From positions 1-41,885 of the forward strand of contig JALBWU010000011.1 in the NCBI GenBank assembly GCA_022678445.1: DNA of 41,885 bases, in the 5' to 3' direction. The notes below the pieces were generated by a model. It made no database searches and was not told the DNA's origin. It was given only the letters and a program-made list of their open reading frames with translations. The translations under genes and the position numbers were made by a program. This stretch comes from Candidatus Aramenus sp. CH1. Lineage in GTDB: Archaea; Thermoproteota; Thermoprotei_A; Sulfolobales; Sulfolobaceae. This document shows positions 31,041-36,696 of the stretch, piece after piece. Position 1 is the first letter of the stretch. Every line of letters starts with the position of its first letter.

Positions 31041-32096
31041 TTAGAACCACTGGTCCAACCCCGTTTGTCTAGAAAAGCCCTTAGCCTCCTTCATAGCCTT
31101 CTTGAGCCTGTCCAACCCGTTCCTTACCCTCTCCTCGTTAAAGTTGTGCTCGTTTACGAGAATTGCTATTACCTCTTCGTCGTTAGGTGACCCTATTTCC
31201 AACGGTTCTGAAGGAGTTGTAACTTCTGGCTTCATGAAGAGTTCCCTTATCTTTTCTACGTCGAAGGTGATCTCCTTTTTTGGTATCTCCCCAGCCTCTA
31301 CGGCCTTCTCTATCTTTCCGTACTTCTTTATGAGCTTGTAGGCGGTCTTAGGGCCTACCCCCTTTATTCCCTCGGGGTCGTAGTCTGTGCCTATTAGGAT
31401 AGCTATATCGATTAACTGCTCCCTCGTTATCCCAAGTTTCTTCAGAACTTGGTCTAAATCAATCCTCTCGGGCCTTACCTCAACGTAGACGTCTTTGTTT
31501 GGTAGCTTTCTTTTTCCCGTAACAGTCAAGTTCCTAATCAAGGTCTTTGCGCCAAAGAGAAGGGAATCGTAGTCTTGACTGGCTGAGGCGTAAGTCAATC
31601 CTTGAGCGTTTAGGTAGGCTGACTCGGCCTCACCTTCCGACGGGGCTTGAACAATGGGAATTCCCATAGCTTTAAGTAGTTTTTTACCCTCATCTGCCAT
31701 CTGATTAGTTAGCCTAGTGGACATCTGCGAGTACTTCCTCATCTCCGTTACCTTTCCTTCCTCCTTTGCCTTCTCCAGTTTCCTCTCTGCCTCCTCCTTA
31801 ATTTGTCTCCTCCTCTCCAGTTCCTCTGCCTTTAACTCTGGGGGTTTCCCGTCGAATACGTAAATAGGTATGATTCCTTCCTCAACAAGGTTTATAGTCC
31901 TGTAAAAGACACCGCTTAGGTGACTCGTAATCCTTCCCTGGGAGTCCATTAGTGGTGTCCCGTCAGGTTGTCTTATAGCGGTCAAGAACTGGTAGAGGGC
32001 GTTGTATGCGTCAACGCTGACCTTCTTTCCCCTAAGTTCTGACAGCGAGATCTCCTTTTTTACGTCCTCTATTAGATCGGAGAGATCTACGCCTAT
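31041..32096 (-). CDS. fen: Flap endonuclease 1, probably starting at AUA
   Basis: The complete family N-terminus is encoded: GVDLSDLIEDVKKEI, then SVDAYNALYQFL with catalytic D29. It is preceded by ATA, exactly where other FEN-1 proteins have Met. In-frame TGA stands three codons further up and no ATG, GTG or TTG occurs before a TTG at 31985, which would delete 37 residues including catalytic D29. GGTGA ends six bases before ATA, and ATA overlaps the upstream stop (ATAG). Later motifs are complete: VFDGKPP, APSEGEAESAYL, SQDYDSLLFG and GTDYDPEGIKGVGPKTAY. A PCNA-binding box TGLDQWF ends the protein. About 351 residues. FEN-1 removes 5' flaps in replication and repair. Confidence 0.92.
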   Translation of the reverse strand: MGVDLSDLIEDVKKEISLSELRGKKVSVDAYNALYQFLTAIRQPDGTPLMDSQGRITSHLSGVFYRTINLVEEGIIPIYVFDGKPPELKAEELERRRQIKEEAERKLEKAKEEGKVTEMRKYSQMSTRLTNQMADEGKKLLKAMGIPIVQAPSEGEAESAYLNAQGLTYASASQDYDSLLFGAKTLIRNLTVTGKRKLPNKDVYVEVRPERIDLDQVLKKLGITREQLIDIAILIGTDYDPEGIKGVGPKTAYKLIKKYGKIEKAVEAGEIPKKEITFDVEKIRELFMKPEVTTPSEPLEIGSPNDEEVIAILVNEHNFNEERVRNGLDRLKKAMKEAKGFSRQTGLDQWF

Positions 32097-32323
32097 TCCT
32101 TTTCACCTATATAAGTTATCATTCTGGTGTTCTCCCTAATTAACGATACTGATATGTACCCCCTTATCTCTAAGGCCATTAATGCCTTTAAGAAGTCGGA
32201 AAACGAAAAATCGTAATTTACTTCCCTCTTGATCTCGGAGAACAGATCTTCGTCCTTTATAGGTCCCTCAAGTTTCCTGACTCGCTCTAGGACTATGTAG
32301 TTAAGGGGGAGCTGTCTCCACAT
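32093..32323 (-). CDS. Small winged-helix-like protein between cdc48 and fen
   Basis: About 76 residues, charged, with no cysteines. The pattern YIVLERVRKLEG, DEDLFSEIKREV, FSFSDFLKALMALEIRGYISVSLI and a last strand MITYIGEKE looks like a small winged helix. I do not know the family. ATG seven bases after the cdc48 stop is chosen; a TTG five codons upstream overlaps cdc48. The stop TAG overlaps the AUA start proposed for FEN-1, so it is in one operon with both neighbours. A role linked to replication or proteostasis is not shown by the sequence. Confidence 0.75.
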   Translation of the reverse strand: MWRQLPLNYIVLERVRKLEGPIKDEDLFSEIKREVNYDFSFSDFLKALMALEIRGYISVSLIRENTRMITYIGEKE

Positions 32324-32330
32324 TGTACGC

Positions 32331-34634
32331 TCACGCAAAGGTGCTAGGCTTTATGGCCTGCTTTGGTAATTGCTGCCTTGCCTTCTCCACCCAGCTCTGA
32401 TAGAACCTTATCATGTCAGGCGTCACAGATGGCTTCACCTTCCTCATTGCCTCCTCTAAGTGTCTCATCTCTATCTTTATGCTAGATCCGCTCATGCACT
32501 CTTTCATCTTAAGATCTCTGCAGTCCCTGTCATCACTTGGGCAGAGCTCGCTTACTTTGGTTATGCACCCTCTCATCCCTTCTCTAACCGCAATCATAGC
32601 AGCTTCCCTTACTATGGCAGCAAGGTCTGCACCAGTGTAACCCTCAGTCTTCTCAGATATCTCCTCTAGGTTAACGTCGTCATTTAGAGCCACCTTTCTT
32701 GTGTGTACCCTTAATATTTCGTACCTAGCCTGCTTGTCTGGGGGTGGGACGTAAATTAGTTTTTCGAACCTTCCTGGCCTCAATAGGGCGGGGTCTAGGA
32801 TGTCCGGCCTGTTGGTGGCTGCTATTATGATGACGTTGTCCAACTTCTCTATCCCGTCCATTTCAGCCAACATTTGGTTTACTAATCTCTCAGTGACTCC
32901 AGTGTCACTGGATATACCCCTCATCGGAGCTATTGCGTCTATTTCGTCGAAGAAGATCACAGCTGGCGCGTACATCCTCGCCTTCCTGAATATCTCCCTT
33001 ATTGCCTTCTCGCTCTCCCCAACCCACTTGGAGAGCACCTCTGGTCCCTTCACCGCTATGAAGTTGGCGCCGCTCTCAGTTGCCACAGCCTTAGCCAGCA
33101 TAGTCTTACCGGTGCCAGGCGGGCCGAAGAGGAGTATGCCCTTGGGCGGTTCAATGCCAGCAGTCTCGTAGTACTCCTGGAACTTTAGCGGGTATTCTGC
33201 CACTTCCCTCAGCTCTTCCTTGATATCGTCCAAACCTCCTATGTCGTTCCATCTTACCTCGGGAACTTCTATGTAGATCTCTCTGAAGCCGCTGGGGACT
33301 ATCTCCTTATGGGCCTTCAGGAAGTCCTCCATTTTCACTTCCATTTGCTCTAGGATCTCTGGCGGTATCTTGTCCTGGCTAATGTCTATCATTGGCAGGT
33401 ACCTCCTTAGGGCTATCATAGCGGCTTCTCTAACAAGGGCAGAAAGGTCGGCACCAGTGTAGCCGTGGGTTATGTCAGCTATCCTCTCCAAGTCCACGTC
33501 CTTGGCCAGGGGCATGTTCCTGGTGTGTATCTGCAGTATCTCAAGCCTACCCTGCTTATCTGGAAGTGGGATCTCTATTTCCCTGTCAAACCTGCCCGGC
33601 CTCCTCAGTGCTGGATCTACTGCATTTGGCCTATTGGTTGCAGCAATAACAATTACATTACCTCTGTTTTCCAGGCCGTCCATTAACGTCAGTAGCTGTG
33701 CCACCACCCTCCTCTCTACTTCTCCTATTACTTCGTCTCTCTTGGGGGCTATGGCATCTATCTCGTCTATGAATATTATCGCGGGTGCGTGCTTCTTCGC
33801 ATCGTCGAATATCTCCCTTAGCCTCTGCTCGCTCTCGCCGTAGAACTTACTCATTATCTCTGGGCCGTTTATGGAAGTGAAATACGCTTCAGTCTCGTTG
33901 GCAACTGCCTTAGCAAGTAGTGTCTTGCCCACGCCAGGAGGGCCGTATAGTAATATCCCCTTAGGTGGTTCTATTCCAAGCCTCTTGAAGAGCTCTGGAT
34001 GCCTCAAGGGAAGCTCCACGAGTTCCCTGATCTTCTGTATTACGTTCTTCATTCCGCCTATGTCTTCATAAGTTACCCTTGGGTACCTGCTCTGCTCTAT
34101 GGGTTTGTCGCTTATAGTTATGCTAGTCTCGTCTGTGATCATTACCACTCCAGGGGGCCTAACTTGGACTACAGTGAAGGGTATAGCTTGACCGAGCACT
34201 GGGATTAGTACTGTGTCTCCTTCCACAAATGGGAACTCCTTCAGTTTTTTCTTCACGTAGGCCACGAACCCTGGATCCACGGTGATGGAGAAGTTGGAGG
34301 GGGCGAGCTTGATGGACGTGGCCGTCTTAACGTTGGCTTTCCTTACTATGACCTTATCACCTATGGACACGCCAGCGTTCTTCCTGGTTATCCCGTCCAT
34401 CCTTATGATGTCCTTTTCTCCTGTCATGTCCTCTGGTGCTAACGGCCACGCTATGGCTGCAGTTTTCCTCTGTCCTTCTATCTCCACTACGTCGCCTGGG
34501 CTAACGTCAATAGACGCCATTATGTCAGTGTCAATTCTGACTCTCCCTCTACCTACGTCCTTTTGCCTAGCCTCGAGGACCTTAAGCACTACTTCGCGTC
34601 TTTGATTAGGTTGTGACTGAAAACTAGCACTCAA
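32331..34634 (-). CDS. cdc48: Cdc48/p97/VAT-type AAA ATPase
   Basis: A 767-residue AAA protein: an N-domain of double-psi barrel type (about 1-190), then D1 with Walker [11 protein letters not shown] and Walker [11 protein letters not shown], then D2 with [10 protein letters not shown] and [10 protein letters not shown]. Both second-region-of-homology arginine motifs ([20 protein letters not shown]) are present. Hexameric rings unfold proteins and can feed the proteasome. A short insert in D2's C-terminal part has three cysteines ([17 protein letters not shown]), seen in crenarchaeal homologues as far as I recall. The C-terminus KPSTFA lacks a clear HbYX proteasome-docking motif. The start is TTG with a GGAGAT site upstream. 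Confidence 0.97.
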
Positions 34635-35239: not shown

Positions 35240-35599
35240 TTGAAGATGGTCGTAATGGTCAGGAGCGACTTAAAGCTGGGCAAAGGTAAGATAGCTGCCC
35301 AAGTAGCTCACGCCGCAGTGACCCTAGTCTTGGAGATAATTGAGGGAAAGAACGAGAAGTGGAAGGAATGGCTCTTTAGGTGGATAGAGGAAGGGCAACC
35401 AAAGATAGTAGTCAAAGTGGACTCATTTGCTCAGCTTAACGAAAGGTTACAGAGGGCTAGAGCAAAGGGGTTACCCACAACGATCATTATGGACGCTGGG
35501 AAAACTCAAGTAGAGCCAGGAACCATTACGTGCGGAGGGATAGGTCCTGCAGAGGACTCGCTAGTCGACGAGATCACCGGTGACCTGAAATTACTTTAG
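35240..35599 (+). CDS. pth2: Peptidyl-tRNA hydrolase 2
   Basis: A 119-residue Pth2 enzyme that frees tRNA from peptidyl-tRNA. Motifs: MVVMVRSDLKLGKGKIAAQVAHAA at the start, IVVKVDSFAQLNE, TTIIMDAGKTQVEPGT and CGGIGPAEDSLVDEITGDLKLL. All are canonical. TTG at 35240 and ATG at 35246 are both possible; TTG keeps the usual Lys before the first strand. Its last codons carry the GGTGA that serves as a ribosome binding site for the overlapping truD. Confidence 0.95.
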   Translation: MKMVVMVRSDLKLGKGKIAAQVAHAAVTLVLEIIEGKNEKWKEWLFRWIEEGQPKIVVKVDSFAQLNERLQRARAKGLPTTIIMDAGKTQVEPGTITCGGIGPAEDSLVDEITGDLKLL

Positions 35600-36696
35600 A
35601 CCCCCTTGACCTAGCTATAGGCATAGAACGACTTTATCACGATTGGGAAAAGATAGACGTGGAAATCCCAAGGCCTGAGGGCTTTAAGGTCGTAGAGAAG
35701 ATAGGGGAAATACCAGCCACCGAGTGGAGGGGTAGAGAACAGGGAAGGTACGCCTTCTTCCTCCTTGAAAAGGTAAATAGAGACCACTTTTCCGTTTTGA
35801 ACGAGCTGGAGAGAGTTCTCGGTAGCAAGGTAAGGTACCTGGGAATAAAGGACGCCAACGCTATAACTTACCAATTGGTCTACGTAAAGGCGCCATCAAA
35901 GGTCACGGAATATGTAGGTGAGGGGTTCAAGATAACGCTCAGGGGGTACTACGACGGTAAGGTGTCCCACGGAGGCAACGAGTTTACCATAAGGCTAGTT
36001 AGTGATAAGCTGGCTGAAATAGAGGAAAGGGTCAAGGAAATTACGAAGGATCCCTACGTGCCGAACTTTATAGGCTACCAGAGGTTCGGCACCAGAAGGC
36101 CAATAACCCACGTTGTGGGGTACTACCTCCTAAGGAGGGACTGGTGTAACGCTCTCTTCCACATCCTGGGCAGGCCCTTTTACTCAGAGTCCGAGACAAT
36201 GAGAAAAGCCAGGAAATTGGTGGACGAGGGGCGCCTAGAAGAGGCCTTAAAGGAACTCCCAGGGAAGTTTAAGCAGGAGAGGGTTCTCCTTAAGAATTAC
36301 TTGAGGAAAGTGGACTGCTATTCTGCCCTCAAAAGCTCCCTAATTCCCTTGTCCTTTTACGTCGAGGCATTCCAGTCATACCTCTTCAATAAATACCTTT
36401 CGAGGAAAATGGACGAGGTAAAACGAGATAAGGAAACCTACTTGACCCTCCCGGTTGAACCAAGTAAGTGCGACGACGTATGTAGGGAAGTATTACAGGA
36501 AGAAGGAATATGCCTTGCTGAGTTTAAAGTCCCGGAACTTAAGGTAAATCTGAGGGAACTAACGAGAAAAGCCTTTGTTAAGGTAAGGAATATTAGGTTT
36601 CAGGATGGGACACTTACCTTTGAGATAGAGAGGGGTGCATATGCTACAATAGTTTTAAAGGAGTTACTTAACGCAGATCCTCTAAAAATAACTTGA
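35590..36696 (+). CDS. truD: tRNA pseudouridine-13 synthase TruD, probably starting at AUU
   Basis: TruD family with NRDHFSVLNELERVLG, YLGIKDANAITYQLVYVK (catalytic Asp in the GxKDA motif), FIGYQRFGTRRPITHVVG and EAFQSYLFNKYLS. It makes pseudouridine 13 in tRNA. The first canonical start is GTG at 35659, but the frame upstream encodes PLDLAIGIERLYHDWEKIDVE, the normal archaeal TruD beginning (an LGI..Y element). No ATG, GTG or TTG exists there before the TGA at 35581. ATT at 35590 is in frame, and GGTGA (35579-35583) ends six bases before it, so AUU initiation giving about 368 residues is likely. It overlaps pth2 by ten bases. Confidence 0.88.
   Translation: MTLDPLDLAIGIERLYHDWEKIDVEIPRPEGFKVVEKIGEIPATEWRGREQGRYAFFLLEKVNRDHFSVLNELERVLGSKVRYLGIKDANAITYQLVYVKAPSKVTEYVGEGFKITLRGYYDGKVSHGGNEFTIRLVSDKLAEIEERVKEITKDPYVPNFIGYQRFGTRRPITHVVGYYLLRRDWCNALFHILGRPFYSESETMRKARKLVDEGRLEEALKELPGKFKQERVLLKNYLRKVDCYSALKSSLIPLSFYVEAFQSYLFNKYLSRKMDEVKRDKETYLTLPVEPSKCDDVCREVLQEEGICLAEFKVPELKVNLRELTRKAFVKVRNIRFQDGTLTFEIERGAYATIVLKELLNADPLKIT

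Follow-up and report, generated by a model that had tools for sequence, protein, structure and literature searches.

At which codon does translation of the flap endonuclease FEN-1 begin in Candidatus Aramenus sp. CH1, and is this codon peculiar to a single genome? The window, that is, the whole stretch of 41,885 nucleotides that was analysed, carries the gene on its minus strand, and the codon that stands where the initiator methionine belongs is ATA (Table 1). A preliminary description of this DNA had drawn attention to the codon without giving a strand; read on the minus strand, the surroundings that it listed are all in place, including the TGA in frame three codons 5′ of the ATA, the GGTGA six bases 5′ of it, the ATAG overlap with the stop codon of the upstream gene, and the lack of any ATG, GTG or TTG in frame before residue 38. 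Across the junction the frame reads TGA AAA GGA ATA GGC GTA GAT CTC (stop-K-G-I-G-V-D-L), and from codon 1 the protein runs I-G-V-D-L-S-D-L-I-E-D-V and further on S-V-D-A-Y-N-A-L-Y-Q.

Table 1. Features of the fen locus in the window (positions on the forward strand of the stretch).
Feature	Position	Strand	Remarks
FEN-1 (flap endonuclease-1) CDS	31041..32096	-	351 codons from ATA to stop; identified by translation, TIGR03674 and Pfam
ATA at Met1 position, proposed start codon	32096-32094	-	equivalent codon in 29/29 family genomes
GGTGA, Shine-Dalgarno-like	32107-32103	-	6-nt spacer to ATA; contains the in-frame TGA
In-frame TGA	32105-32103	-	three codons 5′ of ATA
TAG stop of upstream small gene	32095-32093	-	shares bases with ATA as ATAG
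TTG codon 38	31985-31983	-	first usual in-frame start; false start taken by the ORF caller
Small upstream gene	32093..32323	-	76 aa from conserved ATG (MWRQLPL...); no family match
CDC48/VCP-like AAA ATPase	32331..34634	-	TIGR01243, 1107 bits; upstream of the small gene

The identity of the protein and the extent of its N-terminus are well supported. TIGR03674, the NCBI curated profile for FEN-1, scores 468.2 bits where its cut-off is 351.95, and its alignment places residues 1-351 on profile positions 1-338 of 338, so that codon 1 falls on profile position 1. The Pfam domains XPG_N (PF00752) and XPG_I (PF00867) exceed their gathering scores; the Pfam model 5_3_exonuc, with 36.6 bits, remains under its cut-off of 40. 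The first usual start codon in the frame, TTG at codon 38, lies beyond the conserved aspartate of codon 29, a catalytic residue in this protein family. As had been foreseen for standard gene callers, the mechanical list of open reading frames contains a truncated FEN-1 of 314 aa (31041-31985) that has lost Asp29, and a truncation of Sulfolobaceae FEN-1 is to be expected from any caller restricted to ATG, GTG and TTG.

The preliminary description had named a sequencing error that turned ATG into ATA as the observation that would undo its reading, and a comparison with close relatives as one way to find out. FEN-1 was therefore searched for in 197 genomes of the order and matched in 182, among them 29 of the 31 genomes of the window's own family, which we infer to be Sulfolobaceae (completeness is 79% and 71% for the two genomes without a match). 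Where Met1 is expected, these 29 have ATA in 25 cases, ATC in three (L014, L026 and L027) and ATT in one (L021), codons hereafter called AUH, and ATG, GTG or TTG in none. Records with familiar names are found on both sides of this count, with ATA in Candidatus Aramenus sulfurataquae, Metallosphaera yellowstonensis, M. javensis and Sulfolobales archaeon HS-7, and ATT in Sulfolobales archaeon Acd1; these five belong to the 29 and are not additional to them, and the family name is inferred from them. An error of sequencing or assembly could have been suspected in the window, whose assembly consists of 24 contigs, but ATA, ATC or ATT recurs in the nearest relative as well as in another 27 species, many of them represented by single-contig assemblies, and this explanation is refuted. 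The flanks of the codon are just as regular: a stop codon lies in frame one to three codons 5′ of AUH in every one of the 29 genomes, a GGN codon for Gly2 follows it directly in every one, and the GVDL N-terminus, which aligns with residues 2-5 of other FEN-1 proteins, is kept in all genomes except L021, which has GVQL. Judged by these alignments, the AUH layout is a trait of the whole family and not a peculiarity of one genome.

Outside the family, FEN-1 was matched in 153 genomes, and 81 of these (L031 and 80 fragments), picked to span the ten other families and most genera of the order, were examined. Starts were placed where the alignment could be extended without gaps across the N-terminus; at two f7 loci, which truly start with ATG and TTG, the position was moved by two residues on visual inspection. 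The 81 genomes have 39 ATG, 22 TTG, 19 GTG and one CTG at this place, and AUH in no case. Since usual start codons stand at the aligned place in 80 of the 81, the AUH site is a start position. The occurrence of AUH there in 29 of 29 family genomes versus 0 of 81 others is more than chance would be expected to give, and among the genomes examined the AUH state, as far as alignment can place it, is limited to one family. The archaeal FEN-1 proteins of TIGR03674 found elsewhere are among the closest known counterparts: they belong to one protein family with the FEN-1 described here, which matches the profile over its full length from residue 1, but they begin at usual codons in 80 of the 81 genomes examined, as opposed to AUH in Sulfolobaceae. 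The single CTG is an observation of its own: it is found in L086 (G029, family f9), where no usual codon occurs within 12 codons on either side.

Could translation begin further downstream at a usual codon, the N-terminus of FEN-1 being dispensable? The preliminary description had argued that a later start would inactivate the enzyme. This is correct for 21 genomes including the window, in which the first usual codon is found at position 33 or later, beyond Asp29; it does not hold for the remaining eight of the 29 (L004, L014, L015, L022, L023, L025, L027 and L029), which have a TTG, GTG or ATG between AUH and codon 29, and for these genomes a shorter active FEN-1 is consequently not excluded. 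A certain dispensability of the first residues might also be read from the crystallised S. solfataricus FEN-1 (PDB 2IZO, 346 aa), which lacks residues 1-5 and has Met in place of Ala6. The retention of GVDL in 28 of the 29 genomes and the position of the SD-like motif, which is spaced for the AUH codon, speak against a downstream start, and we regard it as unlikely, with a slim chance at best of being the general answer.

The crystallised protein also illustrates a practical consequence. 2IZO is the only Sulfolobus FEN-1 chain that we found among PDB sequences, and the FEN-1 of G131 (L009) is identical to it from chain residue 2 onward; the Ala6 codon in G131 is GCA. We infer that the start of the crystallised construct was selected because no start codon was apparent. 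Past work on Sulfolobaceae FEN-1 may have relied on proteins that lack the native N-terminus at Gly2.

The region 5′ of AUH is regular as well. Exactly six nucleotides before it stands GGTGA in 26 family genomes, GGGGA in two and GGTGG in one, which covers all 29; pairing with 16S rRNA is inferred. GGTGA is presumably the Shine-Dalgarno (SD) motif of Sulfolobus, and at 5-9 nt before the start it occurs in 12 of the 80 outgroup fragments. The conserved AUH, the fixed spacing of the SD-like motif, the upstream stop codons and the lack of any usual start there are direct observations. AUA, AUC and AUU are at the same time the codons of isoleucine, and the pattern alone cannot separate a start from a retained isoleucine.

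A small gene precedes fen at all 29 family loci, and in all of 20 stretches around fen that were compared both the VCP gene and the small gene are present. The mechanical list begins the small gene at a TTG (32338) and makes it 81 aa long, five of which lie before its conserved ATG. Neither Pfam nor NCBIfam gives a match to its product at E 0.001, and that it might be winged-helix-like is no more than a guess. The stop codon of the small gene is the TAG at +1, forming ATAG, in 23 of the 29 genomes; it is a TAG at +7 in the three ATC genomes (L014, L026 and L027), a TAA at -2 in L021, and a TGA at -9 in L022 and L023, in the latter two in the frame of FEN-1. The regions upstream of outgroup FEN-1 genes, of which only about 160 nt were seen, give a mixed picture, with some open frames ending near the start, for example in f9, and no claim is made that coupling between the small gene and fen is specific to the family.

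This arrangement invites the idea that FEN-1 is reached by frameshifting from the small gene, AUH then being an ordinary isoleucine codon within a fusion protein. The small gene indeed ends within a few bases of AUH in every family genome and lies in a different frame in 27 of the 29, AUH is exactly the set of isoleucine codons, and one -1 frameshift has been reported in S. solfataricus (PMC8211752). In L022 and L023, however, the two genes share a frame in which a TGA stands three codons before the ATA, and no frameshift can join them. The codons available for a shift are not conserved, inspection by eye revealed no slippery run, and the spacing of the SD-like motif to AUH is fixed. As the overlap in shifted frames is missing from some members of the family, a programmed frameshift fusion was rejected as a general explanation, and we give it very little credence in any form.

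A more serious alternative accepts AUH as the start codon and sees in it merely a passive by-product of ATAG followed by GGN, which the SD-like motif and translational coupling make tolerable without any regulation. Where the two genes overlap as ATAG, the third base of the start codon is also the middle base of TAG. With Gly2 fixed as GGN, an ATG there would change this TAG to TGG and the small gene would lose its stop codon; the overlap could thus hold the third-base A in place in the 23 ATAG genomes, and the SD-like motif six nucleotides upstream in all 29 would supply the tolerance that the argument needs. The loss of the stop would not be costly in every case, however. A second TAG follows two codons on in most ATAG genomes (GTAGAT; L030 has GTC), which would limit the extension of the small protein to two residues, and the start codon would be released if the stop moved only a few bases. 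Six genomes have in fact no ATAG, with the stop at -2 or -9 (L021, L022 and L023) or at +7 (L014, L026 and L027), and none of them has ATG. In L021-L023 the stop of the small gene reaches no further than the first base of the start codon, which is still ATT or ATA, and ATG would cost the small gene nothing. The overlap is therefore rejected as the whole explanation of AUH, and it remains possible as a partial cause in the 23 ATAG genomes. That AUH is nothing but a by-product is a possibility we keep in mind and consider doubtful.

The second TAG arises from a codon choice that is odd in its own right: Val3 is GTA in 28 of the 29 genomes and GTC in one (L030), at a site that is fourfold degenerate, and it is this GTA that creates the TAG in the frame of the small gene.

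Whether G is avoided at the third base of the start codon was approached through a tree of FEN-1 proteins, built without residue 1. The third base has changed at least three times within the family, twice from A to C and once from A to T, and G is found in no row. Codon labels on this tree showed no clustering beyond that of shuffles, and the tree supports only the count of changes. In a control, two of 38 invariant fourfold-degenerate columns of FEN-1 were also without G in all 29 rows, one of the two being V3, beside the start. Taken together, these comparisons lend modest support to selection against G at the third base and do not prove it.

Initiation at AUH in the window and throughout the family, with the weak codon lowering output, is therefore the reading that we prefer, and we put its probability at roughly 0.8. 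The preliminary description had likewise arrived at AUA as the start; the support that this start has gained is one of conservation, and we found no peptide, toeprint or ribosome-profiling data for it. The throttling of FEN-1 is a further inference. Ribosomes would arrive at the site after finishing the small gene, possibly to reinitiate, or would bind GGUGA directly; pairing of the SD-like motif would then hold the AUH triplet, six nucleotides on, in the P site, where initiator Met-tRNA may pair with AU and mispair at the third base. The methionine would probably be cleaved off before Gly2. A weak AUH codon is predicted to lower the output of FEN-1 and to make it dependent on initiation fidelity and thus on aIF1. 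That Met-tRNAi starts at AUH, that output is lowered, that lowering is useful and that aIF1 takes part are all inferred. The conservation of AUH suggests a conserved brake on FEN-1 production, if the codon is indeed read as a start.

The factor aIF1 is reported to promote discrimination against non-canonical starts in a S. solfataricus system, as cited in PMC6237735 and concluded in PMC8211752. The aIF1 gene was considered as a further AUH-start gene, which would have been the parallel to infC, and was ruled out: a plain ATG stands just before the conserved N-terminal motif in all 30 family genomes with a match.

Weak starts with a mismatch at the third base are known in bacteria. The infC gene for IF3 keeps AUU or AUA across species, its weak start being tied to the fidelity of initiation. 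The E. coli pcnB gene, which encodes a nucleic-acid enzyme, is reportedly held low by its AUU start (Binns and Masters 2002). By analogy with infC, pcnB and ccpN, the best reading of the fen locus is that a strong SD-like motif precedes AUH and that AUH has been retained as a weak start. In S. aureus, conserved AUA and AUU starts combined with extended SDs give about 10% of AUG expression, and for ccpN in rich medium the value reaches up to 30%; infC has an AUA start in S. aureus and is autoregulated in E. coli (all PMC13009471). The same paper covers close parallels in layout, ccpN of Staphylococcus and Bacillus (AUA) and cvfC1 of Staphylococcus (AUU), which share with fen a conserved AUA or AUU behind a strong extended SD, and it assigns their starts a role in translational attenuation.

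The marks of a conserved AUH start, that is, an AUA, AUU or AUC kept across species with no usual start at the site, are met in 29 of 29 genomes, as is an SD-like motif at fixed spacing, its pairing with 16S rRNA again being inferred. The differences from the bacterial cases are considerable. The ccpN and cvfC1 genes encode small or regulatory bacterial proteins, depend on IF3-based fidelity and have been demonstrated by Ribo-Ret and reporters, whereas FEN-1 is an archaeal replication nuclease with an overlapping upstream gene, for which the evidence is confined to sequence. Bacterial infC likewise has a conserved start codon with a third-base mismatch, but its product is itself the fidelity factor; as FEN-1 has no such role in translation, no autoregulatory loop of this type follows. 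The pcnB gene resembles fen as the gene of a nucleic-acid enzyme with an AUU start, but it is bacterial and the enzyme is a different one. What is known, then, is an AUH start behind a strong SD in bacteria; what is new, within the literature searched, is its archaeal, family-wide occurrence in the gene of a replication nuclease. It is important to point out that our literature search was thin on subscription papers: it returned no paper on the start of Sulfolobaceae fen and none on an AUA start codon in Sulfolobus, and a prior description is possible.

If it is true, a core replication nuclease with a family-wide non-AUG start would offer a strong natural example of how archaea control expression through the start codon. 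It would also provide a genetic handle on aIF1 fidelity in vivo in the tractable S. acidocaldarius and S. islandicus. A wider hypothesis, which we put forward tentatively and with more reservation than confidence, is that AUA, AUC and AUU, and perhaps GUA, form a working class of weak starts that Sulfolobaceae use for a small share of their genes, that FEN-1 is the invariant family-wide case with its dose set by aIF1 fidelity and by coupling between VCP, the small gene and fen, and that this amounts to an archaeal control of the infC type over the processing of Okazaki fragments.

Two screens looked for other genes with unusual starts. The first compared 20-kb stretches around fen in 20 family genomes and followed 20 genes with homologs in at least 10 stretches, five of the other genes being inspected by eye; for FEN-1, all 20 genomes lack a usual start close to the N-terminus, and for the other genes 0 to 8 do. 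The second scored 400 kb of G131 by codon usage and found 294 coding-like ORFs; in 63 of these, at least 12 codons precede the first usual start. The top upstream coding score among those listed belongs to FEN-1, in a list that omits ORFs with an upstream part lying mostly within another gene. Small as they are and selected by inspection, the two screens give no genome-wide rate. On their evidence, FEN-1 is the clearest AUH case and perhaps not the only one.

Within the window, TruD (35584-36696, plus strand), which follows Pth2, has no usual start before ORF codon 26, and in its relative L118 the first 60 codons are free of one. A GGTGA six nucleotides before an ATT (window 35579-35592) gives TruD a spacing like that of FEN-1 and is found in 18 of the 29 family genomes; two codons after the ATT, NTG stands in nine and NTA in nine. 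The stretch overlaps the conserved C-terminus of Pth2, and the ATT may therefore be a by-product of coding for Pth2.

Three further genes, for TorD, an RsmB-like protein and LeuA, were chosen by eye from the list of the second screen. The RsmB/NOL1-like methylase gene (L140:16820-17875, plus strand, G131) has ATT at its likely start in all seven genomes of genus g4, one of which has TTG right after the ATT, and canonical codons lie nearby in other genera. The TorD-like chaperone gene (L148:13019-13567, minus strand, G131) shows GAGGTGA, six nucleotides and ATA, the ATA overlapping the upstream stop as ATAA; four other genomes have ATG at that place.

The gene for isopropylmalate synthase, LeuA (L153:10832-11971, minus strand, G131; relatives L204-L233; NF041069, 731.9 bits), is often without a usual in-frame start in Sulfolobaceae; a GTA directly follows an in-frame TGA in nine of 30 genomes, and GTG is found in six. 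The start of LeuA is spanned at 29 of 30 loci by a mini-ORF of five to six codons, always in the same other frame, which is absent from four among the more distant homologs that were read. Its peptides are MSIL.., MSVLH, MRILHG, MSFLC, MRFLR and MGNRIL, with leucine at codon 4 in 27 of the 29 and at codon 6 in L231 and L232, and the mini-ORF could encode a leader peptide that senses leucine, or serve as a point of entry into LeuA by a +1 frameshift.
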